Assembly (NCBI RefSeq): GCF_019059575.1
Contig: NW_024881707.1
Coordinates: 124,001 to 188,000 of the forward strand
Reading direction: 5' to 3'
From: Amphibalanus amphitrite
Taxonomy: Eukaryota > Arthropoda > Thecostraca > Balanomorpha > Balanidae
DNA: 64,000 bases
Below, piece by piece: positions 4,339 to 48,545 of this stretch. The notes under the pieces were generated by a model. That model was not told where the DNA came from. It ran no database searches and saw nothing but the letters and a program-made list of their open reading frames with translations. The first letter of the stretch is position 1. Each line of letters starts with the position of its first letter. The position numbers were made by a program, and so were the translations under genes.

Positions 4339-7300
4339 CTGCCGCACAGAGAGAACATGAGGTCACATCGGGTCAGAATAGAGGGTTACAGACAGGGTAT
4401 CACAAGACACGATAGCACACATGACGAGAAGGTAAAACGGAATAGAGCAAACAGATTTTTATGTATGCATGCATGGTCAAACCTTCCCGGCACACTAATG
4501 CGGATCCGTGTGGCTTAAAAAAGTAATGGTATATATTATAAGCAAGGTCATATATTATAAGCAATGGCATATATTATTTCAAGTTCCAAATGACTACTCA
4601 GCAGAAACTCTGACATATTCACAGCTGTCATGGCACCGTCTATGACCTCACCAGTGGCTCTCGGCCCATCATATACTGGTACAGTATATTCCTCAGGTAC
4701 TCTATCTCTGTGAGGGCATCCAGTCCCGAGGTCAGGTCGGCTGCGGCGGCGCCCGACGGCGGCGAGGCGTGCCGCAGCTCCAGCAACCGGCGCAGCTCCG
4801 CCAGCTCCCGTCTGGGGGGGGGGGGGGAGGGGGTCAGATTGGCAGGTGAATGGGCAGGCCAAAGACGGAGGGAGTTTAGAACAATCACGCAGGCTAGCCA
4901 TATACGCATGATAAACGTATGATAAACCAAGGCATAGTTGCGCAGAGAATATTGTGAATGATTGGCGAGCAAAGGAATATGCTGTTAAGTAACTGAATAT
5001 GCTGTAAGTAAGTTATTCACGTCATTCCGTCACCACATCCAGTGGGGGGGGGGGGTGACGGACCCCCCCCCCCCCCACTGGACGTTCCGTCCAACCCCGT
5101 CCATCTAATTCCTTTCATTAATGGCACACTACCGCCACTCACTGGTGTTTTTCGTTGGTCTCCTTCATCTGCTGTCGGTAGGAGAGCAGCTCACGCTGCA
5201 GGGACGCCGTCGCCGCCTCCACGGCCGCCTGTCCGTCCGCCGGCGGCGCCGGGCTCCCCACGGAGCCCGCAGAGGAGGAGTCCAATCCGTTCCGAATCTG
5301 CTGGGAGCGGGCGAATGGAGTGAGGCGGGCATGGTAAAGTGAGAGAGGGGAAATCAGAGTAGGAGACGACTGGTGATAGAGGAACGGGGTTGAGATGCCA
5401 GGAAGAGGGTAAAATAGAAATTTTATGGCAACTGTTATCATGAACGGACACCATTAAAGCGGAAGAGGCTGAGCAAGAAAACAGCATAGATAAACGAGGT
5501 GCAAGTTATGATTGGAAGCAAACATAAAAATGGGAAGGAATGGTTTGAGACTAAAAACATTGCCCATCATTGATCCCACGGCACCACGTCCAGCAGATGT
5601 CGCGCATATCATATCACAGCTGTTGAAGCCCCCTGAGAAAATACGTCCGCTGTTCACACCTCCAGCACCCTCAGTTAAAAACGAGCCCCGGCCGTCGGCT
5701 GTGCCGCCAACAGTTCCACTCCCGATCTACATCAACCACAGACGCCTGCATTACTGACTCACTGACGCTCTGAGCTAATAAACAAAACCCCCGGGTGCAT
5801 GCCAAAGATAAACACATCAACCTACACTACCGGTTTGAATGCCTCATAAAATCAGCGCGTTAGCCGGACCACCAGCGTTGAATATTTCCCTGAATATCCC
5901 GAGGCTAATCCCCACCGCAACCAACAGAAACCAAAACATCGCAACCCAACAAAACCATTAATCATTTCACATCTCCCCGACATGAGTAACCCCGTCCCAT
6001 CCGTTCACAGTCGAGTCTTACCGCTCCCTGCAGACCGAGCATCTGCACGGTCTCCATCTGAGTCTCCAGAACCGCCGGCGGCCCGGCCGGCTCGGTGGGA
6101 AGCCGCCCCTCGGCCGCCGACGCCGCCACCTGTCACAACAGAGCGCGAGTTATGAGCGGCTACTGATGTCAGTGGATGAGGACGCCACATGATGGCACCG
6201 CAGGCACGATGATTGACGGTGAAGCTGAGAGCTACACAGCAACAGTTAGTTATATTTCTATTTCACAAAGTAAGTGACTAATGGTGCAAAAATATCACCA
6301 CAAAAAGACAGTAGGGTCATACAGAGTAATGTAGTTATCTAAGACGGTCACCCAGTCAATTAGTCCCTCTCACCGGCTCGCTCGTTGTCGCTGAGGCGGC
6401 GGCCGCCCTGGCCTCCAGGCGCCGGCGGCGGGCCCGCTCCGTTTTCAGTGCGGCCGTGAGGCTGGTCAGGCGGCCGGCGCAGCGGCGCAGCAGGGGACCG
6501 GCCCGCTCCGCCGGCTCTCCCGCCGTCTCCGTCTCCGGACCGCCCGGCTCGGCGTCCCGCAGACTGGCCTCGACTGCTGACACGGCAGCAGCCAGGTCCT
6601 CTGAGCGCAGAAGCGACTCCTCCCGATCGGTGCGGTCCGCGTCCTGCCGAGCCTGGGCGGCCGCTAGTTCGGACTCCAGGGACTCCACGCGACGGGAGAG
6701 GTTCTCCCGCTCGGCAGCTGAGCTGCTCTGAGTAGAGTCAAGCTCAGACTGGAGAGACTCAACACGACGGGACAGTTCGTCGCGCTCGGCGAGACTGGTC
6801 TGATTCTGGGTTTGTTCAGTCTGGAGCTGGGATTCTAGCTGTTGAGTTCGACGCAGCAGCTCTTCGTGCTCCACACGGCCAGATTCGTTCGAAGCCTGTT
6901 CTATCTTCAGTTTGGCCTCTAGGTCCTCAGCTCGCCTAGCTAGTTCCTCTTGCTTTTCTTGGCTAGAATCTTTACCAGTTTGTTCGATCTTGAGTTTGGC
7001 CTCTAGCTCTTCCGCTCGCCTTGCTAATTCGGCAAGCTTTTCTCGGCTGGATTCATTCTCAGATTGCTCACTCTGAAGTTTTGCTTCTAGCTCTTCGGCT
7101 CTCCTTGTCAGCTCCTCCTGCTGTTCCCGGCCGACTTGGTTCTCAGCTTGCTCGGCGTTCAGCCTGGCCTCTAGTTCCTCAGCTCGCCTTCTCAACTCCT
7201 CCTCCTTCTCTCGAGCTGTTTCGTTCTGAGCTCGCTCAGTGCGCAGTTCAGCTTCCAACTCCTTCGCGCGACGAGCTAGCTCATCACTGCTCGATTGACT

Positions 7301-10300
7301 TAAGCTTCGCTCCGTTATCAACTCAGCTTCAAGCTGTTCCTTCTGTCTTGCAAGCTCCGTCTGTTTCTCGCGTTCGGCCTGACTCTGATCCCGTTCAGTT
7401 TGCAGAGCTTCCTCCAGCTGTTTGGCACGTTGCTGCCACTCCTCTCTACTAGTTTCACTCTGCGTTTTCTCAGCCTGTAACTGCGCCTCTATCTCCTCCG
7501 TCCGTTTCAGCAGCTCCTCCTGCTTCTCTCTACTCTCCTGTTTCTCTCCTCTTTCCGCCTGTAGTTCAGTCTCCAACTGCTGCACCTTCTGGGTCAGATC
7601 GTCACACTCCCTCCGACTGCTCTGACGCTCTACCCGCTCAGTTTCCAGTTCCGTTTCCAGTTGACCCACTCTCTGCACCAGTTCGTCCCGCTCTTCCCTA
7701 GCCTTCTCAGCCTCTCCCCGCTCCGTCAGCAGCTGGGCCTCCAGCTGTTCCGCGCGGATGGACAGTTGGTCTCCCCGCCCACGGCTGGTCTCTGACCGAC
7801 TCCGCTCGGACTCCAGCTCAGTCTCCAGCTCCGTCACCTTCCCGTCCAGCCGCTGCAGCTCGGTTCGACCGGTCTCGGCCTCTGAGCGCTCCGTCTGAAG
7901 CTGCTGTTGGAGGTCCTGCATCTCAGTCTGGTGCTGTGAGTTCTGCTTCTCCAGTTCAGCTTGGTGTTGCGAACCCAGCTCCTGTATTTCAGCTTGGTGC
8001 TGAGAATTCTGCTCTTCCAGCTTTGCCTGGTGCTGAGAGTTCAGCTCCTGTAGCTCCGTCTGGTGCTGGGAATTCAGCTCCTGCAGCCGGTGCTGGTGCT
8101 GGCTGGACAGCTCCGTCAGACGGGCATCCACCGAGCGGGCCTGCTCGTCGCTAACAGCGGCCAGCTGCCGACTGGAGGGATGAGAGAAATAATGTGTTAG
8201 AACGGTCATACTCAGAAAACAAAAATAACGAATCTCAATGGCGGCAACATACAGAAAAACGGTGCATTAAAATGGAAGCATTTCTGGACATACCATTAAG
8301 TGCTACCCATACCATCAGACATAACATTTACCAGCGCCTCATCACCCTTCGCCATATCGACAGTCGATAAACTGATATGGGAGTCAGTCAACGAGACTAT
8401 AAATTTTCTTGGTTCCAAGCTTCCATCACACATACCTATGCTCCTCGCTGAGCCGGGTGGCGGTCTCCTTGACCTCCGCGGCCGCCTTCTCGGCTCGCTG
8501 CTGAGCCGTCTTCAGTTCAGCCTCCAAACGGGAGACAGTGGCTCGCAGCTCGTCAGTGTCTCCCTGCCTCTGTCTCACCTCCTGCCTCGCCGCAGCCAAG
8601 TCTCCCTCCAGACGGGAGACAATGCCTCTCAGTGCTTCGTTGTCTCCCTGTTTCTGCTGCACCTGAAATAACACAATTTATCTCAATAAAAAAATATCAA
8701 AGTGTTAAGAATCAGGCGATAAACTGGATTCCGCTGTCCGTTAAATTGTGTACATCTTCTCTGAATGAATGAATGAATGAATGAATGAATGAATGAATGA
8801 ATGAATGAATGAATGAACGAACGAATGAATGAATGAATGAGTAAATGAATGAATGAAATCGCTCAATAAGATGCCTACCAACCAACCCGATGAAGCCTCA
8901 CACAAAACAAGCTGATACATAGACCACTATATACCTATATGCCTAGGGCTTACTAGAGCATCAACACACAATTCCGCGTGCTACGTCAAATTTTCCAGCA
9001 GGGCCCTAATGGCAGTCGGCAATATCAGTGCACAGTCCAGGTATATAGTGGTCTATGGCTGATACCTGATTGACTCAACACCAAAGAAGTAAAGTAGATA
9101 AACAAAAGAAGCACTTCCCCGCTGCGCTCCCCGGTACCGAGCGCGATCACCCGCGTGTCCTCTCACCTCCTCGTCTGTGCGCTGCATGCTGGCTCTGGCC
9201 ACCTCCAGGTCCCGCTCCCGCTGCTCCAGCTCCTCCGTCCTCCTCACCAGCCGACTCTCCTGCTCCTGAACAGTGCGCGCGCTCTGCTCCAGGCGAGTCT
9301 CACGCTCCTGCGCCGCCTCCTCTCTGCGCTGGCAGACCGACTCCTGCTCTCTCGCCGCCTCCTCCCGTTGGCACAGCGAGGATTCTCTCTCCTGCAGGGA
9401 TTCCTCCTTCTGACGATAGTCGGAGTCTCGCACTTGGGCCAACACTTCCTGTTGGTGTAGGCGAGTCTCCAGATCGTTGAGCGACATCTCCTTTTCTTTG
9501 AGCCCATTTTCTACCTTCTCTAACAATGTCTGTTTGTCTAATAATCCAGCCTCCTGCTCTTTGACCGCAGTCTCTCTATCCTCCACCTGTTTCTTCTCAC
9601 CATCCAGTGCCACCCCCTCCTCCTGGAGCCGACTAAGCTGCTCCTCCAGCCTCTTCCTCTTCTCTCCCAAGCTAGTCTCCAGCTCCTTCAGTTCCGTCTC
9701 TCTCTGTCTCGCAATTTCCTCCTTCTGGGTTAGCGTAGCGTCCAGCTCCGTCAGCCGCGTCTTCTCCTGATCCACAGTCTCCTGCTCCTGTCGTATCCTG
9801 TCCTCCTCCCTGGAGACGCCCTCCAGCCGTTCCTGCAGGAGTCGCTCCTGCTCCTGCAGCCCCTGCTCCTTCTGGGAGAGTACGGCAGCTCTCTCGGTCA
9901 TCTCCCGGTCCCTCTCCCCGGCCTCCGATTGACGGGAGCTCAGCTGGACACTCTGCTCCTCGACAGGGGACCGACTCGCCTCCAGGTCCAGCTGGCATTG
10001 AGTGAGCTCCTGCGACAGAAATGACCGGCGTTAGATGACATAAGGCAATATCTATCGGGAAAATGCTCGATATCGAACAAAGCAACTACTTTATGCGTAC
10101 TTCTATGATTTTAACGCACAAAAAAAGAAGAAGAAAAGGTTATACCTTTTTGAGGTTCTCCATTTCATCATCAAACTTCTGCTGCAGCTGTTTTGTCTGC
10201 TGCTCCTGTTCACTCTTGCTCGCCGCCGCAGAGTTTCGCTCAGCAGAAACTGTTGAAAAAAGAATATGCACACGGTAAGTTCCCCTTATCAACTCGTACT

Positions 10301-31354: not shown

Positions 31355-31535
31355 TTAGATGCTGTTGGATCCGTTGTACTTGCTGATGAGGGCCTTGACG
31401 CTGAACTCGCAGTTGGCGTAGAGCTCCTCGCAGCTCTTCTGGCTGGAGCGGCCGCGGTTGGCGGCCTCCAGGTACTGGTCGAGCACCACGCGCAGGTCGG
31501 CGGGCAGGTTCAGCAGCTCCAGGTACTGCAGGTAG
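31355..31535 (-). CDS. Shared last exon (second cysteine pair, stop)
   Basis: 181 bases: one base completes a glycine codon, then 59 codons from YLQYLELLNLPADLRVVLDQ to ...NGSNSI and a TAA stop at 31357-31355. Cysteines in KSCEELYANCEF make the second pair. With exon 3 the four cysteines could form two disulfides in an extracellular helical domain. Confidence 0.83.
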
Positions 31536-34500
31536 CTGTGGACGCAGAGAGGACGCGCCGTCAACGCCTCGGACGGCTAACGGTACCCGCCCCGGGGCCC
31601 GAGGGTGCCGGCGCCCGGCTGACGTAACGCCCCGGCCCGACTCAGAAGTGGACCACTGTCCGCCGCTCGGCCGCCCGCCGCCCGGCCTGGGAAAGCGGCC
31701 GGCGCCATTAGGTCGGGTGGCGGCTCGAGGGCTTATCGTCGCGCTCGGACGCGCCGCGCGCATACTGAACAGCGGCGAAAGGCCGCGCCAGAAGTGGCAC
31801 GCAGAGGGCGCGGCGCGCCGACACGGGACATGACGGGAAATCGAGCCCACCCAGACCGCCGCCCACATGGGGACGGACACCCGGGCGACTGAAGTGGGAC
31901 GGACGGTTCAGCTAGGTCACTGGAGGTCAGGAGAGGTCAGGAGAGATCAAGAGAGGTCATGACAGGTCACTGTGGGTCAGACGGAAGCCCAATAAGGAAG
32001 ACCAGGTGTAACCCAGGTGCACTCTATGTGGGTCAGTCGCAGGAGGCCGGGAGGTCAGGAGTGGGCAGTTGCATTGCGGCCACCAGAAACCGTTGCAAAT
32101 GCAATGAGGGTCAATGGGATGCGTTAGATTGAACTCAGAACGAGGGTAGGTGCTGTTCAAACTGTAGCGGTCACCGGTATGCCGCGGGTCGGTGTGGGAA
32201 AGAGGTCGGGGGTGTGCGGCAGAGTGTGGAGCGTTCACTCACCCGAAAGCGTCGTTCATCTTGCGGGCGGTCGAGCCCCAGGTGTTCTCGTTCTGGTGCA
32301 GCTCGCACACCACGCGCTGCTGGCACTCCATCTTGTTGGCGTCGAACTTGCGGTAGACCTGGCGACACACGAGACAAACCGTTATTGGCGCCAGGTGTAC
32401 GACGGATGGAGGGCTATAATTACGATGATGTGTAAATTTATTATACCAAAAGATGTCATTAAGAACCACTCAGCTAAGGGTAAGTCAAAACTGATGCCGT
32501 GATATTGAGCTAGGATTACGTTACATAAAACCGGACTGACGAAGTAAAGCCACAAACAGGTTGCAGCGGCTCGACACTGGCAGGCCGGTTAAACCGGCTC
32601 AACTCGTCTTCGGTAGCCTTGACAATGACCATATGGTGACCGATCGGGGCGGGGCGGTGACACGGTGACCGGTCGAGGGAGGGGGGGGGCTGACGTACCT
32701 CCTCCATCATGGCGATCCAGTCGAGGACGGACAGGTTGTCCCAGATGGCCGAGTACGGGTCAGAGCCGGACCTACAGTCGAACACGCACGTTAGACCACG
32801 AGCGCAGCCGACTCGACACTGGGAGGGGAAGCTACTCGAACTGTGCGTTACAGATACTTGATAACTAGCAAGATGGTGCAAAGGCGATGAAACTGATGAA
32901 AGCCTGTCCCGTAGCTCAGTTGGTAGAGCATTGGACTCCCGGTAGTGAGAGCCCGGGTTCGAGACGCTCCGGCGCTCGATATTTGAGACTCCTGACGGGG
33001 ATGGTCTGCGGTTGGTGGGAGCATCCGCAGCCAGTTGAAGTCAGTTGAGTGGGACAGGCCGTGTCCGGCTTTGAAGGGCACGTTAAACTTTGGCATCTAA
33101 ATTCTCCCGTTACCCGGAATTGCGCGATCGGACGGTAGGGGTCGGGGTCTACGCAACAAGCTCCGCTTAGCGTGGGCTCCGGCTCTGTCAATCCGTCCAA
33201 TCAAACATTCGAGCTAAATTTATAAAAAAAAAAAAAACTGCATAGAGATGATCAATGACTTGAGCCAATAAAGGACAAATCAAAATGATTGGGAGTAATT
33301 AAAGCCACACAATGAAGAAACAAGAATATGGAGCACCAGTATTAGACAACAATTAACGTTTTTCGTAAAGCGAAAAAGTTATGTTATATACAAGCAGTTC
33401 TAAGTAAAAGCGTTACTGAAGAAAGCAACACATACATTTACGATGCACTTCTATATACAGGCATGCACATCTAAATACGGTTTCAACCCACCACCGACAA
33501 TTAGCTTACCGTACTGCTTTCAGCTGCCTGCTCGTTTCAATGATGGAGTGTTAGAGTTATGTACAACATATATGAAGTAGAGAAGACAGACTTCTTGACA
33601 TAAACGGAACTTTGTAAGGAGTGTCGAAAGAAGGATTATGTCATCGGCGATTGATGAAGCACGACCAATCGTTGCTTTATCAGGTTAGCTGATGTGCTTC
33701 TCCGCTCCGTCTCGATCAAATGTCCTGTCAAAGTTTGTTATCGGCGCACGCATAGCCGGGGGCGTATTTTCAGGGGAAGGGTCGTCAGCTGGGTATCGGT
33801 GGACCTCTGAGACGCTCGTCACATCAGGTCACCTCATGCGAAGCTGCATCGGTCGGCTTGACCTCAGCGGAAGTCTGCGCTCTTGCTCAGCTTTTGATGC
33901 GGTATTTACAGCAGATCCAGCCGGCTGGTGCCGTCTGGACAGCAGTCGCCGACCTTTTCACGTGCTGGTCAAGGTCGAAGGCGGCAGCGAGACACGGATG
34001 CATCATCCAGCCGCGGAGGGTTAGCTCTTCTGTCGCCAGGCTCGTCAGCAGCTCGGGTCTGTACATGTCGTCCCGAAGGGGCGACGTGGAATGCGTGTCT
34101 CTCGGGGCCGGTTAGAAGGCCCGTCGCTGACGCTGAGGTGAGCTGCGGTAGCTCGCTGCGACGCTGATAACGTGCAGCTCCGGGCGGCATATGTACAGCC
34201 GGTTGGTATTTACAGGCCGCGTCTTTACCTGGCCTGGAAGCCGGTGGCTCCAGTGAAGCCGGTGCTAGTGAAACCGGTGCCGAAGTCATCGGCGGGCAGG
34301 ACCAGCGAGACGGCCAGCCAGATCAGCAGACCCAGGAGAACCAGCGCCACCAGACCTCCGATCGCGGTCAGCACGGCAGTGGTCGTAAGGGCAGCTCCGT
34401 CGTTGGTATTGTTGAACAGGAAGCGCGGGTCGAAGTCGACCGCGTCCGTCAACTCATTGGCCGAGGCGTACGCCACGCAAAGGAGCGTCAGGAGGAGCTT

Positions 34501-37500
34501 CTGCATGGTGGCGCCTGTGAAACATTGCCGGGTGCTGAGTGCCGCTCGGTGAAGGACTATGTACAAGGGCCCGGGGCGGCGGGCGTGTTGAGCTGTGTGT
34601 TAGTGGGAGAGAAAGTTGGTCATGTGAGCCGCCGACGATGAAGCGGCGATACTTACCAGTACCCCGTGTACATTGGCGTGTACACATCACGGCGGTGCCG
34701 CCGTCGACTCGCCTCCTCTGCCACGTGGCCGTGAAGGTGACGAAAAGGAACGGGAACGAAGACGAGAAAAGCGGCGAGTAGGAAAACCACGTCTAGCTCG
34801 ACGAGTTGAAGACATCAAAGTCGTTGGAGACGAATCTAGATGTGTGCGTTACTGGGGATTCTAAATGGAGGATTAAAAATGTTTACTGGAAGGATGGGGG
34901 ACAGTCTTGTAGTTCAGGATACTGGACCGGGAAGGCCGGACGATGCCAGAGGAGCCGCCGACTGGCGCGGTTGACGTTCCACTTACCTGTGCCACTCAGC
35001 AGCGGCGGCCCGGGCGCGCCCCTAGTGGGCCCGCTGAGTGCACTCATGGCATGCCCACCCCTGAGGACACTGAACACCCAGGGTACGTACGCAGAACGGG
35101 CGGAGTAGCCGCTCGCGTGGTGGCCGCCAGAGGCGCCATACGCTGGGTAGCCTGAGTAGCCTGTCTCGTCTCCACCGGCGCTCAACAGATAGAGCAGATA
35201 GGCGAGTCCAGCGAGCAGGATAAGACCGGCCAGTCCGGCCACGGCACTGGCTATGATTGTGCCCAGATTGATGGTTAGACCCGTGGTGTTACCAATGAAG
35301 AAAAACCGGGGGTCGGCGGCAGCGCCATCAGCCGGCACCAGGTTCACAGTGTCCTCGAAGGCGGCGGCGCAGGCCACAAGTGCAAACAGCAACACATGAA
35401 CCAACATGCTGTTATCTGCAAAACAGCAACGTGCGACGGGGTGAGAGGCGAGGTACGTACGCGGAGCGGCCGCTCGAGTAGCTCGTGTAGCCGGTGGACG
35501 CGTAGTCCTGACCCGAGTACCCGGAGTAGCCGGTGCCTGAGTCCCCGGACAGCAAGAACAGGAGGTAGGCGAGGCCGGCCAGCAGCGCCAGGCCGCCGAG
35601 CAGCGCCAGCGCGCCGGCCAGCACCGAGTTCAGGCTGATGCTCAGGTCCGAGGTGTTGAAGAGGAAAAAGCGCGGGTCGGGCTCGCCTTCGACGAGCGCG
35701 TTCTCGGCGAGCGCCGAGGCGCAGAGCGCGAAGGCCAGGAGGGCGCGGTACAACATGGCGGCTCCTGCAATCACGGCAGCTCAGTGACGCTAGCCGCCCG
35801 GACAGAGAGTCCGCTCGGAATCCGTCAGGGAGTCCCACCGGGAGTCCACCGGGAAACGACAGGATTCCTCCGGATCGCGCCGTTATGTTGGCCATTTCAT
35901 GTGCGGCTCATCTGCTGCATGTTCGTGTCCATGTATCGCCCGGTTCGACGGAGACCACCGTCGGGCTTGTTTGAGTAGGCGCATGTCTGAGTTTCGTTGT
36001 TGGTTTTGGAATCACAAGGTGCCACCACCAGCTTACCTGTCAATGTACCCGTTTGTAAATGTACCCACCACCGGCGTGCATGTTGTCAATGTCGTGCATG
36101 TATACGTACGCGGCGCGGCCGGAGCCGTAGGAGCTGTACGAGGAGCCGGTGGAGTAACCGTAGCCAGTCTCTTCGCCCGAGTCGGTCAGCAGGAAGGCCA
36201 GGAGGGCGGCCAGCAGGCCGAGCGCCAGCAGCGCGAACAGGCCGAAGATCAGGGTGGAGAAGGACACGGCCAGAGAGGTGGAGTTGTTGAACACAAAGCG
36301 AGGATCGACGTCATCGACGGCGTTCAGGTCATTGGCAAGGGCGGAGGCCGCGAGCAGCAGCACGCCGAGCGCGTAATGGGCACGGTTCATTGTGGGAGCC
36401 TGTGGAGCGAGAGGCGCGCGTGAATCTATGTATGTACAGCGGGAGTTGCTGGCCGCTCGGTGACAGACGCGGCGCGGCGGCGGCAGATGCGGCGGCGCGG
36501 CGGCGTCCGTTAACCAGTCCGCCATTAGCCCGGTCAGTAACGGTGCGGCTCGGCGCCCTACAGCCGCAGGCAGGGTCGCTGGCCGGCCGCCGCCGCCGCG
36601 CCGCCGCCGCCGCCGCCGCTGCCGTCATCGACACCGGCCGGACGCAGCGCTGCAGGATTCTCTGACAGGGACTACCGCCATGGTTCGCTCGTTGTGAAAG
36701 CAAACACGTCACACCCCTGGGTGGCGCACAGAGACGCTCTGCCGCCCTCGGGGCGAGCATTTACGCTTTTTGCGACGCGTCATGATACTTTCTCGTGATT
36801 AGGGCTCACTGGGCGTAAATTTAAACGGGCTAATAAGGCTAAAGTAGCGTTACGACACAAATACTGTAAGATTTGGAACACTTACTGGATGTGTTTAGAG
36901 ATCGGAACGTAATAAAAATGGGCAAACTAGGAGCAGGTTAGCCCGAATTTAGAGAAGTTCAAATCGAAAGAAAGTTATGAACGCTGACGGCCAATAAAAT
37001 AACAAAGACCTATAGCGATCATTATCAAATACATATACTCTATTACGATGATAAAAGAGACAGTTGTATATCACAATAATGCTCTGAGCGCCTTTGTAAG
37101 TGGGTATAGGACGTACAAACGGGTAATGGCAGAAATATAATTAAAAAAAAAAAACAGTTAGTCAGGGGGACTATTTACAACACACACAGTTTGTGGAAAC
37201 TAAAACAGCAAACCACTAATGATCTTTAACAAAATTAAGTGGAACTTTATAAATTACGTTGAAGAGCATGAATACTACTCTAACCACTTGAAACAAAACC
37301 TTAACATGCAAGACAAATTGACAATGCAAGACGATGAAATAAATTTTACGTTAACACGAAACCTATCTTAACGTTACAAAAACGGCCAAACTGAGGGTTT
37401 TCAGGCCGGCGGATGTTGGGGGCTCCGATTTGTGTTCTGACAAGCACTCTCGCAGGAACACGGCGGATCACAGAGCACGGAGCACGGCGAGCACAGAGGC

Positions 37501-38153
37501 GCGAGCACGGTACTGCACGGCAAGTCCACCTCCACGCTGAGAACACACAACTCTTGCCAGTCGACCGACCGGACCGGCCCGAGCACCGGACGGCAAAAAC
37601 CGGACAGACCGCGTCACGGACTCAATGGGATCATATGACCACTACGGTAGAGTACGTTACGGTATCAATAAAAAACCGGAATGCCTTGAAGGCTGACTGA
37701 AATCGAAACATGATCGCTGAAAAACTTGTTTGGAATGTAAATAGAGAACAAAAACTCGAACATAATGTCAATTTTGCGCAAGAATGAATCGCAAATTGAA
37801 GAATCGAAGAAGTTAAATGTTAAAGTTGAAGCAAATTATTATAAACTTGGGATTCTGAGAGCAGTCTGCTCAGCACAGTCCGCCGGGTCTTTCTGCCGTC
37901 CCCCACGGAGGGTGTCGGCAGCTCGGTGCCGGCTCCAGTCGGTTCGATCACGGCCCGGGTCGTGCTCCTCAGCCTGGACGCGTCCTCCGCCGGTGCCTGC
38001 CACGCTGGCGGCGAGCCTCCGCGCCACACCGCGCTCCCACCTCCGATCAGCCGCCGTCTCCTCCACACTCGAGTCACACTGCACCGCGTCGGCACGTACC
38101 TTGGGGAGTACTAGCCTACTGCAAGTGAACTGCTGGGACGCCTGTCCGTCACT
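31355..38153 (-). CDS. Secreted/membrane protein gene with four alternative N-terminal exons and a shared C-terminal domain
   Basis: Proposed gene: a leader exon (about 38153-38100), then one of four coding exons A (36399-36110), B (35764-35461), C (35415-35091) or D (34514-34229), then shared exons 32771-32699, 32358-32243 and 31535-31355. Each of A-D has an acceptor 8-9 nt before its own ATG and carries a signal peptide, a DPRF motif, one hydrophobic segment and a polar Gly/Tyr/Ser tail. Each ends in phase 2, matching the single acceptor at 32772. Predicted proteins are 216, 221, 228 and 215 residues. Only one set of C-terminal exons exists, and B and C lie less than 50 bases apart, so separate genes are unlikely. 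I do not recognise a named family. The C-terminal pattern (four cysteines, CQQRVVCELHQNEN, WIAMMEE) looks like an uncharacterised arthropod family. Function unknown; probably an extracellular or surface protein. Confidence 0.8.
32243..32358 (-). CDS. Shared exon 3 (first cysteine pair)
   Basis: 116 bases, 38 codons plus two bases. It contains KMECQQRVVCELHQNENTWG, with two of the four domain cysteines, and ends GG|GTGAGT. The phases match the exons on both sides. Confidence 0.83.
32699..32771 (-). CDS. Shared exon 2 (start of conserved C-terminal domain)
   Basis: 73 bases: one base completes the codon from exons A-D, then 24 codons SGSDPYSAIWDNLSVLDWIA followed by MMEE. The acceptor is CTGTAG|GTCC, the donor GAG|GTACGT. 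Confidence 0.8.
32902..33237 (+). mobile_element. tRNA-derived SINE in the intron of the tandem-exon gene
   Basis: It begins with a tRNA-like head containing the A box TAGCTCAGTTGG (32912-32923) and the B box GGTTCGAGAC (32956-32965). An unrelated body of about 250 bases and a run of 14 A (33224-33237) follow. The anticodon and T stems do not pair, so it is not a functional tRNA. It lies antisense to the host gene, between exon D and shared exon 2. Confidence 0.8.
33238..34228. other. Intron sequence between exon D and the shared exons
   Basis: AT-rich up to about 33650, then GC-richer. Frames on the plus strand (33692-34167) overlap one another and have no known domain. No further DPRF-type exon was found here. 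Confidence 0.5.
34229..34514 (-). CDS. Alternative exon D (signal peptide, DPRF motif, membrane segment)
   Basis: The acceptor TTTCACAG lies 8 bases before the ATG (34506). It encodes signal peptide MQKLLLTLLCVAYASA, DPRFLFNNTND, a hydrophobic segment, and a tail GTGFTSTGFTGATGFQA that replaces Tyr by Phe/Thr. It is the most divergent of the four. The donor CCAG|GTAAAG gives 278 coding bases, phase 2. Reading through the donor would stop within one codon (AGG TAA), giving a C-terminally short secreted form. Confidence 0.8.
35091..35415 (-). CDS. Alternative exon C (signal peptide, DPRF motif, membrane segment)
   Basis: The acceptor TTTTGCAG lies 8 bases before the ATG (35407). It encodes signal peptide MLVHVLLFALVACAAA, DPRFFFIGNTTG, a 25-residue hydrophobic segment ending LAYLLYLL as in exon B, and a GYSGYPAYGASGGHHASGY tail. 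The donor GC|GTACGT gives 317 coding bases, phase 2. A second strong donor CACAG|GTAAGT near 34985 could give a longer version. Confidence 0.82.
35461..35764 (-). CDS. Alternative exon B (signal peptide, DPRF motif, membrane segment)
   Basis: The acceptor ATTGCAG lies 8 bases before the ATG (35756). It encodes MLYRALLAFALCASALA as signal peptide, DPRFFLFNTSD, a long hydrophobic segment rich in Ala/Leu/Gly, then GYSGYSGQDYASTGYTSY. The donor GC|GTACGT gives 296 coding bases, phase 2. Unspliced, its frame would run into the acceptor of exon C only about 45 bases on, which argues that the donor is used. Confidence 0.82.
36110..36399 (-). CDS. Alternative exon A (signal peptide, DPRF motif, membrane segment)
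   Basis: The acceptor CCACAG precedes the ATG (36390) by 9 bases. The protein starts MNRAHYALGVLLLAASALA, a signal peptide, and reaches DPRFVFNNST at residues 29-38. It then has a hydrophobic stretch at about 43-68 and a tail with GYGYSTGSSYSSYGSG. The donor GC|GTACGT leaves phase 2 after 281 coding bases. Without splicing the frame would continue to a stop at 36040, just before another donor-like CAG|GTAAGC (36036). Confidence 0.8.
36400..38099. other. Intron between leader exon and exon A
   Basis: A (GCC)n-like GC-rich block lies at 36580-36625, AT-rich sequence at 36780-37380 and GC-rich sequence at 37420-38090. No other DPRF-type exon or other gene was seen on either strand. Confidence 0.5.
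38100..38153 (-). other. Untranslated leader exon
   Basis: About 54 bases between the initiator and the donor GTACGT (38099-38094). It has no ATG in a good context. It can splice to any of the four acceptors placed just upstream of the start codons of exons A-D. Confidence 0.55.
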
Positions 38154-38185
38154 GTGCCTCTCCGGGCCGGCGGCTCGGTTTTATA
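38154..38185 (-). promoter_or_regulatory. TATA promoter of the tandem-exon gene
   Basis: TATAAAA lies at 38185-38179 on the minus strand, with GC-rich flanks. A CACAGTG initiator-like motif lies 32 bases downstream, placing the start near 38153. The transcript then runs into a good donor, CAAG|GTACGT, at 38100. Confidence 0.65.
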
Positions 38186-46184: not shown

Positions 46185-46404
46185 TTGACCCGGAACAAGG
46201 GATTAGCAGAAGTAAATGTACGAAAGGAGTGAACCCGAAAGTAACAAAATTCAGTAACAGAGTTTATATATCTAGCTGGAACAATTAAGTTGCCGGAAGG
46301 GAGAAAGTTACGTATTACATGAAAGAAGGGTAATTAGCAACAAGACAAGCAAGGGATGTAAGAACATACCCATTTGAAATACCAAAACACCATATCGATA
46401 AATG

Positions 46405-46420
46405 TTTCCTTCCTTCGCAG
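46405..46420 (+). promoter_or_regulatory. Splice acceptor for the envelope mRNA
   Basis: A pyrimidine-rich tract ending in GCAG four bases before the envelope ATG. Together with the donor at 43114 it gives the retrovirus-like subgenomic message. Confidence 0.65.
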
Positions 46421-46424
46421 GCGG

Positions 46425-48545
46425 ATGCTCCTTCTGGGAGTGTGTCTAACATTCATTCAGTCAAAATCACACATAGCACATGCCAGCTCTACGGAGACTG
46501 TTGCTGCTCCGGGGTTGGAAAGCGGGCTGCTTTTCACACCACAAGGACTTCTAATCTTAGCAACGGGAGAATGGAGTGTCATCACTCACCTCCGAAACGG
46601 GGTACAGCATCGACAGGCCAACCAAATTCAGCAATACATAACAAAAATCGACCAGGCAGTGGACGGATTTCCGGCGTTGAGCCTAGAGGAGCACAGTCCG
46701 CAAAGAAATGCTGGCACCAGACAGAGGGAAGCAAGAGGCGGAATGATCTTTCGGAAGCGGGAAGCACGGAGAAGGGAGGCAATCCGCTCCAGTCTCATCC
46801 AAACATGGAAACGCGAAAGGGAGTGGATGCAGAATGAACTGGACATCGCTCGAAACGAAATAATCAGCCTGGAGACTGAAATGAAGCTGACCCGAAAATC
46901 AAGAAGCGTGCTACCTTTCATGGGGGGTGCCCTTAAGTGGGCCTTTGGAACTGCTACAGAGAAGGACATACGGAAACTACACAAGCAAATAAAGGAGGTG
47001 AACGTGGAGGCGGGAAGACTGCACCATCTCGTTGAGCTGCAGACCACCATTTTAGGTTCGCTACGTGAGGGACAAAGGATGAACGAAGACAATATACACA
47101 ATCTAGCCAATGAAACGCAGAGGCTCTTTCGAACGGTGATAAGGACGCAAGCCCTGGCAAACTGGAGACAGCTCACGACGCACCAGTACATGCGCCAGGA
47201 GGCAGACATCTCCCGGCTCATAGCCGCCGCTACCCGTACGGTGGGAGCAGCCGTGCTAGCTCTGAAACAGGAGGTTCGGTGGCTAGCGGAAGCGTTCGCC
47301 CACGCCCAACGAGGAGAGGTTACCCCCACGATCTTGGCTCCAAAAACACTTAAGAATATTCTGGCCGAGTTGGAAAACAAGCTGCCGCAGGGCTGGGCCC
47401 ACGCCGTCCCAGAACCAAAATCACTACAAGATATCTACCAAACGCTGCAGGTCTTTGCCCTTGGTACAACCGCGGGATGGGAGCTGCACATACAAATCCC
47501 GCTGATGTATCGACCCTTTGGTCGGTTCGAGCTGTACAAAATCACAACCGTCCCCACCCACTTCTTGAACTCCTCTACAGCTTTGGTAACGGTCACGGAA
47601 AAGGACTACTTCGCTATCTCCAGCGACCACCGTCTGCACATCGATATCTCGGCGAAAAGTCTCCAAGAATGCTTTCAACAGCGAAGTGGGACATACTGCA
47701 AGCGCTTCACCCCCTTGGTGGATGAGCGACGGAGAGGATGTCTCTATGACGCTTTCCGGGGAAACCTGCGAGAGGCGGACGCCTCTTGTACACGAAGAGT
47801 GACAAGACCAACGCCGCAAGTCCTGACGGTCAAGGAAAACCAGTGGGTTTATGTGCTACCGGACATGGAAACTCTTGCACTAGAATGCCTAGGAAATCAG
47901 CCAACCAAAATTTTCAAGCTACAGGGTACTGGACTTTTCACGCTGCCTCCCGGTTGCACAGCCATTGGTGACCGGTTCGTCATCCCAGCGCATCTGGCAC
48001 GCAGTGACTCGGGGTATTACAATGTGACGATGGACGATCTGCAACATTTTACGATCAATGTGAACGCGGAGCTACTAATGGAGCGGATACCCGAAGCAGA
48101 AAGAATGCCCACAGTGGACCTCTTACAAATGGTTAAAGAGCTACCTGGAAATCAAGAACTGGACGCCAAATTGGGAGAGCTGAAAGGAAAACTGACGAAA
48201 TGGAGGAAAGGCAGAGATCTTCTGAGGTCAACAGAGTCTTGGGAGGAAACGCCTGAGTGGAGTGCGCATCTCACGCTGTCAACGGCTGGATTGTTAGGAG
48301 TGATAGCCATCCTCGGAGGACTGAGTTACGTATGGCGGAGAAAGGGGACCAGAACCTCTGTCGGAGATTGGAAGGGTGATGTGGAGAGCAGGATCGAACG
48401 GTTAACGGAGAAACTTGAGCAGATGAATGAAGCGAAGAAAAATGACCATGACAGGCTGCAAGAGCTGCGAACTACGGAGGAAGCGGTGCGCCGGGATATT
48501 GAAGAGATCAAAAGACAGGTTGAAGAATTGATGGTCACTATGTAA
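46425..48545 (+). CDS. env: F-type envelope glycoprotein of the retroelement
   Basis: The ORF is open from 46374, but the start is placed at 46425: a strong acceptor (TTTCCTTCCTTCGCAG, ending 46420) lies four bases before that ATG, and the following residues form a signal peptide (1-20). The 706-residue product has a furin-like RKSR at 157-160, followed by a hydrophobic fusion-peptide-like segment and helical heptads, the arrangement of errantivirus and baculovirus F proteins. Potential N-glycosylation sites (NET, NSS, NVT), cysteines clustered in the middle, a membrane segment at about 616-637 and a 69-residue cytoplasmic tail follow. The tail is predicted to be coiled coil, which is unusual. 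The frame has no breaks, consistent with a young copy. It would be translated from a spliced mRNA using the donor at 43114. Confidence 0.85.
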   Translation: MLLLGVCLTFIQSKSHIAHASSTETVAAPGLESGLLFTPQGLLILATGEWSVITHLRNGVQHRQANQIQQYITKIDQAVDGFPALSLEEHSPQRNAGTRQREARGGMIFRKREARRREAIRSSLIQTWKREREWMQNELDIARNEIISLETEMKLTRKSRSVLPFMGGALKWAFGTATEKDIRKLHKQIKEVNVEAGRLHHLVELQTTILGSLREGQRMNEDNIHNLANETQRLFRTVIRTQALANWRQLTTHQYMRQEADISRLIAAATRTVGAAVLALKQEVRWLAEAFAHAQRGEVTPTILAPKTLKNILAELENKLPQGWAHAVPEPKSLQDIYQTLQVFALGTTAGWELHIQIPLMYRPFGRFELYKITTVPTHFLNSSTALVTVTEKDYFAISSDHRLHIDISAKSLQECFQQRSGTYCKRFTPLVDERRRGCLYDAFRGNLREADASCTRRVTRPTPQVLTVKENQWVYVLPDMETLALECLGNQPTKIFKLQGTGLFTLPPGCTAIGDRFVIPAHLARSDSGYYNVTMDDLQHFTINVNAELLMERIPEAERMPTVDLLQMVKELPGNQELDAKLGELKGKLTKWRKGRDLLRSTESWEETPEWSAHLTLSTAGLLGVIAILGGLSYVWRRKGTRTSVGDWKGDVESRIERLTEKLEQMNEAKKNDHDRLQELRTTEEAVRRDIEEIKRQVEELMVTM

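Follow-up and report, generated by a model that had tools for sequence, protein, structure and literature searches.

Alternative signal-peptide and membrane exons joined to a constant DM4/DM12 part in the acorn barnacle Amphibalanus amphitrite

The window analyzed here is a stretch of 64,000 nucleotides (nt) from a contig of the acorn barnacle Amphibalanus amphitrite (C210:124001-188000), and the gene under study, LOC122385256, lies on its minus strand. Four variable exons (A, B, C and D) are arranged in tandem within about 2.2 kb, upstream of a single constant set of exons (Table 1), and the genomic span is about 3.15 kb when counted from the ATG of D. The four exons are homologous to one another, and each encodes a signal peptide, a short stub with a sequon for N-glycosylation, one hydrophobic helix and a tail rich in Gly and Tyr, the stub before the helix being about 25 residues long. 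The constant part matched the DM4/DM12 family (PF07841) with 33.5 bits against a curated cut-off of 22 (E 6.8e-8), and its cysteines C130, C136, C192 and C199, near the C-terminus, were invariant in 24 of 24 aligned sequences. The exon coordinates, the splice acceptors (9, 8, 8 and 8 nt 5' of the respective ATG) and the coding lengths proposed in the initial annotation of this DNA were all recovered, as were the phase 2 left by the four donors and the completing G with which the constant set opens.

A protein search, in which only the 7997 candidates with the most words in common were scored and 30 proteins were returned, gave "uncharacterized protein LOC122385256 isoform X1 [Amphibalanus amphitrite]" as the best match. 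When the exons of the window were spliced conceptually to the constant set, the products of A, B and D were identical to proteins P0001 (X1), P0005 (X3) and P0009 (X4), respectively. LOC122385256 and three of its isoforms are already annotated in RefSeq; isoform X2 was not seen among the proteins fetched, and the name LOC122385256 was not found in the literature searched. The same identity was observed at a paralogous locus, present on contigs C810 and C1236 (97.1% identical to each other and taken as its two haplotypes), where the splices of A, B and D were identical to P0004, P0021 and P0022. Identical proteins were obtained for 6 of the 10 splices, window and paralog together, each holding a single N-terminal exon, and such one-exon proteins exist for A, B and D. 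The initial annotation had proposed one gene with alternative N-terminal exons, one module per protein, and a shared C-terminal part. This stood for A, B and D, and the single module was also supported in relatives; exon C belongs to the array by its anatomy, and its productive use is presumed. Overall, this one barnacle gene quite probably gives rise to several membrane proteins with a common DM4/DM12 domain.

Unspliced read-through of A, B and D yields short membrane proteins, and C-type read-through sequences were also found (P0033 and P0034). Short products of this kind would fit a reading in which A to D are four independent genes, or defunct duplicates of an exon, and merely seem to feed one C-terminal part. 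This explanation is contradicted for A, B and D by the RefSeq isoforms of one gene, and other barnacles join differing N-terminal modules to a common constant part. Moreover, no stop was found within exons A to D of contig C198, presumably the second haplotype of the window (two blocks matching at 97.5 and 98.7% identity), or within exons A to F of C1236. Separate genes or dead copies are thus regarded as highly improbable.

Table 1. Features of the variable-exon array of LOC122385256 in the window (positions counted from the first base of the 64,000-nt stretch)
Feature	Position	Strand	Remark
TATA box (TATAAA), presumed shared promoter	38180..38185	-	recurs with the leader in the paralog (L027)
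Non-coding leader exon, donor AAG/GTACGT after 38100	38100..38155	-	start inferred
Variable exon A, ATG 36390, 281 coding bases, phase 2	36110..36399	-	A + constant set = RefSeq isoform X1
Exon A to second strong donor CAG/GTAAGC	36037..36109	-	frame of A stops before the donor
Variable exon B, ATG 35756, 296 coding bases, phase 2	35461..35764	-	B + constant set = RefSeq isoform X3
Variable exon C, ATG 35407, 317 coding bases, phase 2	35091..35415	-	by anatomy; begins 45 nt past the end of exon B
Exon C to second strong donor CAG/GTAAGT	34987..35090	-	phase does not fit the constant exons
Variable exon D, ATG 34506, 278 coding bases, phase 2	34229..34514	-	D + constant set = RefSeq isoform X4
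Constant exon 1	32699..32771	-	first base G fills the phase-2 codon
Constant exon 2	32243..32358	-	part of the DM4/DM12 domain, first cysteine pair
Constant exon 3	31355..31535	-	remainder of the DM4/DM12 domain, second cysteine pair, TAA stop

The exchange of N-terminal modules was also analyzed in related proteins. Among the 34 proteins typed (P0001-P0034), 26 had the constant part, and 25 remained once P0019 was left out. P0019 is an A. amphitrite model in which the constant part stands on another short start and which carries none of the exons A to D; the homology and order of these neighboring exons would fit mutually exclusive tandem duplicated exons, with one of them per transcript. The nearest type was A in 13 of the 25 spliced homologs, B in 2 and D in 8, and the distant P0031 and P0032 were weakly A. 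The A-type P0002 and the D-type P0020 were alike at 118 of 119 residues of the constant part and at 27 of 76 in the N-terminal module. In the stalked barnacle Pollicipes pollicipes, LOC119102165 isoform X1 (A-type; P0011/P0023 pair) agreed with isoform X2 (D-type) at 119 of 119 residues of the constant part, and this species has an A/D swap on the same constant part. Additionally, 11 of the 14 spliced proteins labeled jgi or lgn had a longest contig of 1.1-1.6 kb, which is less than the genomic span of the gene studied here, so that they most likely derive from RNA. The trimming and grouping of the modules were as follows: 36 N-terminal modules were placed in a tree, with P0019, F and six RefSeq duplicates of window or paralog rows left out and the read-through rows trimmed, and they grouped by exon type. 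Window and paralog copies grouped together as a clade in the case of B (93/80), C (97/92) and D (100/100), and the two copies of A were part of a 19-row clade with a weak fork (82/93). The exon E of the paralog (pE) had a very long branch and is of uncertain homology. A reading of the 5' part of P0015 by eye revealed a possible trace of the leader, which was not used.

The paralogous locus has a TATA box, a leader, exons A, B, C and D and the constant set, in the order and phase of the window. Such a recurrence of all four exons makes a chance origin of the layout very unlikely. Two additional exons, E between C and D, and F after D (L027 2493-1945), show by eye an acceptor, an ATG, hydrophobic segments and a phase-2 donor. 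F-type proteins ending at the donor were found on three other contigs (P0035-P0037). When the window array was searched for remnants of E and F, the scores stayed inside the shuffled range, and no claim is made that the window has lost them. The search of the genome with exon A gave at least 21 matches, all of them on C210, C198, C810 and C1236 or on C19 and C1606.

The upstream TATA box and non-coding leader of the initial annotation were borne out by their recurrence at the paralog. The local alignment of this segment between the two loci scored 55, and the maximum in 2000 mononucleotide shuffles was 26. In a blind scan of the paralogous locus (495 windows) the best places surrounded its leader, the next unrelated place scored 20, and the leader without the TATA part still scored 37 against this 20. 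The leader was missed by blastn at E 0.1 between window and paralog, and recovered by local alignment.

Nonsynonymous divergence (dN) between window and paralog was lower than synonymous divergence (dS) in every part of the gene: dN and dS were 0.23 and 0.81 for A, 0.38 and 0.78 for B, 0.30 and 1.08 for C, 0.60 and 0.85 for D, and 0.14 and 0.20 for the constant part. The ratios of D and the constant part are near 0.7 and therefore a weak sign of constraint. The dS of the constant exons (31355-32771) is four to five times below that of the variable exons (0.78-1.08), a difference that points to either gene conversion or constraint acting on the DNA of the constant part.

The reading frame limits how the exons can be combined. 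For all 6 pairs of exons A to D in the window, joining shifted the frame and ran into a stop, and the same happened in 10 of 10 paralog pairs without F; exclusion among A to D would be enforced at least by frame. In the proposed mechanism, transcription would start at one TATA promoter, and the short non-coding leader would be spliced to one acceptor just before the ATG of A, B, C or D. The phase-2 donor of the chosen exon would then be joined to the constant set, the remaining array being skipped. Each product would have its own signal peptide, sequon stub and membrane helix together with the common C-terminal domain, and the cell or the stage would choose the exon. It is rather likely that a shared leader is spliced to each variable exon, and the use of a single promoter for all of them is likely as well. 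In all 10 variable exons of both loci, an acceptor picked by eye was present 0-14 nt upstream of the ATG. Such an acceptor would be useless if transcription started inside the exon.

Several observations weigh against this reading, and they concern the splice sites, the introns, the promoter and exon C. Splice sites were scored with generic metazoan frequencies taken from recall and not trained on A. amphitrite. With this generic consensus, the acceptors of the variable exons scored a modest 1.1-5.2, reaching 4 or more in 4 of 10 cases, compared with 1.4% of all ATGs in the window; they were at or above the acceptors of the constant exons of the window (1.0-1.4). The productive donors of A, B and C were weak by the same consensus, although RefSeq uses those of A and B. 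Frame does not exclude exon F of the paralog, as all 5 of its pairs kept the frame, and F could be an added cassette or a first coding exon. Finally, blastn of the introns between window and paralog revealed no convincing conserved block beyond the exons and the leader, nothing that would direct the choice, and therefore no docking or selector sequence is claimed.

On the promoter side, the motif TATAWA was found on the sense strand of the window at 38185 (leader), 37251, 33457, 33390 and 33224, and of the paralog at 7086 (leader), 6617 and 5466. One of these in the window (37251) lies between the leader and A, and two in the paralog (6617 and 5466) lie upstream of A. Very strong second donors, CAG/GTAAG, follow 73-124 nt past the productive donors of A and C at both loci (36037 and 34987 in the window; L027 5011 and 3902 in the paralog), and a further strong donor is located at 34657, between C and D; the three in the window were not part of the initial annotation. 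When spliced to the constant exons, each of the four second donors led to a stop. Such donors may mark non-productive ends of A and C, or may belong to additional leaders with TATA-less promoters. The stretch after A looks conserved by eye in the read-through proteins of related barnacles.

If these donors belong to extra leaders, the array would resemble those of the UGT1 or protocadherin type, with an own start for each exon or pair of exons, and 36037, 34987 and 34657 would end small leaders for B (and C) and D. Their position upstream of the next variable exon at both loci agrees with this, and comparable arrays use a promoter per exon in the portions consulted of PMC1885805 and PMC4835542. 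However, TATAWA was absent between exons from A to D in the window and from A to F in the paralog. A second copy of the leader was not found elsewhere in the gene either (score 19, against a shuffled mean of 20.4 and maximum of 29). In addition, the gap between B and C is only 45 nt in the window and 56 nt in the paralog, so that a separate promoter and leader for C are unlikely to fit; a gap of 45 nt is also near the lower size limit for an intron. These counterpoints leave room for TATA-less promoters, or for one inside exon B. Own promoters are considered unlikely, and the single upstream leader is preferred.

The position of exon C was weighed separately. None of the 25 spliced homologs typed was of C-type, and no identical protein was found among those fetched for C of the window or for C, E and F of the paralog. 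Moreover, the second donor of exon C, whose use results in a stop, scored 9.7, as against -3.1 for the productive donor. Thus, only A, B and D might work as alternatives, C being mainly a non-productive or short form, which would be compatible with either promoter model. By contrast, C is kept at both loci and in P0033 and P0034, with its dN (0.30) below its dS (1.08), A has a similar donor pair and is nevertheless in RefSeq, and the lack of a form in a protein collection says little. A non-productive C is possible but doubtful, and C is retained here as a fourth alternative exon.

A second arrangement of the same family was found on C19 and C1606, where intronless, DM4/DM12-like relatives stand in tandem. 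Six of these copies (L011-L016) were compared, L018 being left out, and some of the six may be haplotypes of each other. Their first 99 bases were identical at 97-99 of 99 positions and their last 435 bases at 425-435 of 435. The segment of 126-132 bases that encodes the sequon and the helix fell in groups, with identity down to 72 of 132 bases. Since the ends are nearly identical and the helix segment is divergent, the segment that varies between the tandem intronless genes is the one exchanged by exon choice in LOC122385256. An origin of the intronless copies as retrocopies of a spliced isoform was considered and dropped: the N-terminal module of L011 scored 127, 126, 117 and 109 against A, B, C and D, and because no parent exon can be named from these scores retroposition is not claimed.

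Regarding the membrane topology, a sequon between the signal peptide and the helix was present in all 24 spliced homologs considered (P0011 and P0019 left out), and sequons inside the DM4/DM12 domain in 20 of these 24. A cleavable signal peptide followed by one helix would leave the shared domain in the cytosol; an outside location is argued for by the four invariant cysteines and the sequons within the domain. A structure prediction with AlphaFold2 on 24 aligned homologs gave a mean predicted local distance difference test score (pLDDT) of 59 and a predicted template modeling score (pTM) of 0.41, too low to inform fold or topology. The "constant extracellular domain" of the initial annotation was, in consequence of these opposing signs, neither supported nor refuted, and a type I membrane protein with the shared domain in the cytosol is slightly favored.

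Arrays of variable first exons consist of tandem 5' exons with their own ATG that are joined singly; in the window, A, B and D were found to be of this kind by protein identity, and C by anatomy. The variable exons of protocadherins include a large ectodomain together with the membrane segment, and the membrane segment of chelicerate sDscam lies outside its cassettes. Known arrays with variable 5' exons on a constant 3' set include UGT1, GCNT2 and the protocadherins, according to the part of PMC1885805 consulted. In UGT1, tandem homologous exons, each with a signal peptide and the N-terminal part, are spliced singly to constant 3' exons (PMC1885805), and the barnacle array is similar in its single-choice N-terminal exons with a signal peptide. 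It differs in that, in the same partial source, a separate promoter precedes each variable exon of UGT1 and the membrane segment is constant, whereas the barnacle gene has one conserved TATA box and leader and a variable helix. The alpha and gamma protocadherins are alike in placing variable first exons on a constant set (PMC1885805) and are described with alternative promoters in the portion consulted of PMC4835542; in the barnacle, by comparison, the stub is about 25 residues long and each ATG is preceded by an acceptor. Chelicerate sDscam is also an arthropod gene in which tandem 5' cassettes are joined to constant exons, and its cassettes encode immunoglobulin domains with a promoter before each, as far as that portion of PMC4835542 goes, whereas the barnacle cassettes carry a membrane helix. 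The constant part scored above the cut-off of the DM4/DM12 family; the consulted parts of the literature naming PF07841 term the domain function-unknown and mention no array of alternative N-terminal modules.

No paper title on this gene, or on such arrays in barnacles or arthropods, was found in a search that covered subscription journals thinly. The earlier statement that no described family has this layout was nevertheless too strong, in view of UGT1, the clustered protocadherins, chelicerate sDscam and the three isoforms already in RefSeq. The layout is real, conserved and partly annotated, and it is a variant of the known variable-first-exon arrays, from which it departs in its single conserved leader, its acceptor before each ATG and its variable membrane helix.

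Other features were observed in the window. An insert of about 340 bases (32896-33234) is present in the window haplotype and has no counterpart in C198; by eye it contains a tRNA-like stretch of the kind found in a short interspersed element (SINE), but ARAGORN reports no tRNA in it. At 46374-48545 on the plus strand, an open reading frame (ORF) of 723 amino acids matched Baculo_F (PF12259, E 8e-23); such ORFs occur in env-bearing long terminal repeat elements. On the minus strand, a match to RNase H (PF00075, E 2e-8) at 2209-2940 probably comes from a retroelement, and two long ORFs of 617 and 282 amino acids at 6356-9901 have a coiled-coil look, are perhaps exons of one gene and gave no Pfam match above the cut-off.

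As a tentative general view, the family may vary the helix and the sequon stub while keeping the DM4/DM12 domain, and it may do so by two routes: exon choice under a single promoter, and a tandem series of intronless genes in which the flanks are homogenized and the helix segment is kept different. The helix would then choose the partner or the membrane domain for a shared, probably cytosolic domain. The best-known arrays, UGT1 and sDscam, vary a binding domain, whereas here the anchor and the stub vary and the larger domain is constant, and this anchor variation is found at two paralogous loci and in an acorn as well as a stalked barnacle. What a membrane helix contributes to the choice of partner becomes directly testable in this gene, which also offers a handle on the DM4/DM12 domain. 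Moreover, the compact array, with double inclusion that breaks the frame and with weak productive and strong non-productive donors, is a tractable model of exon choice.

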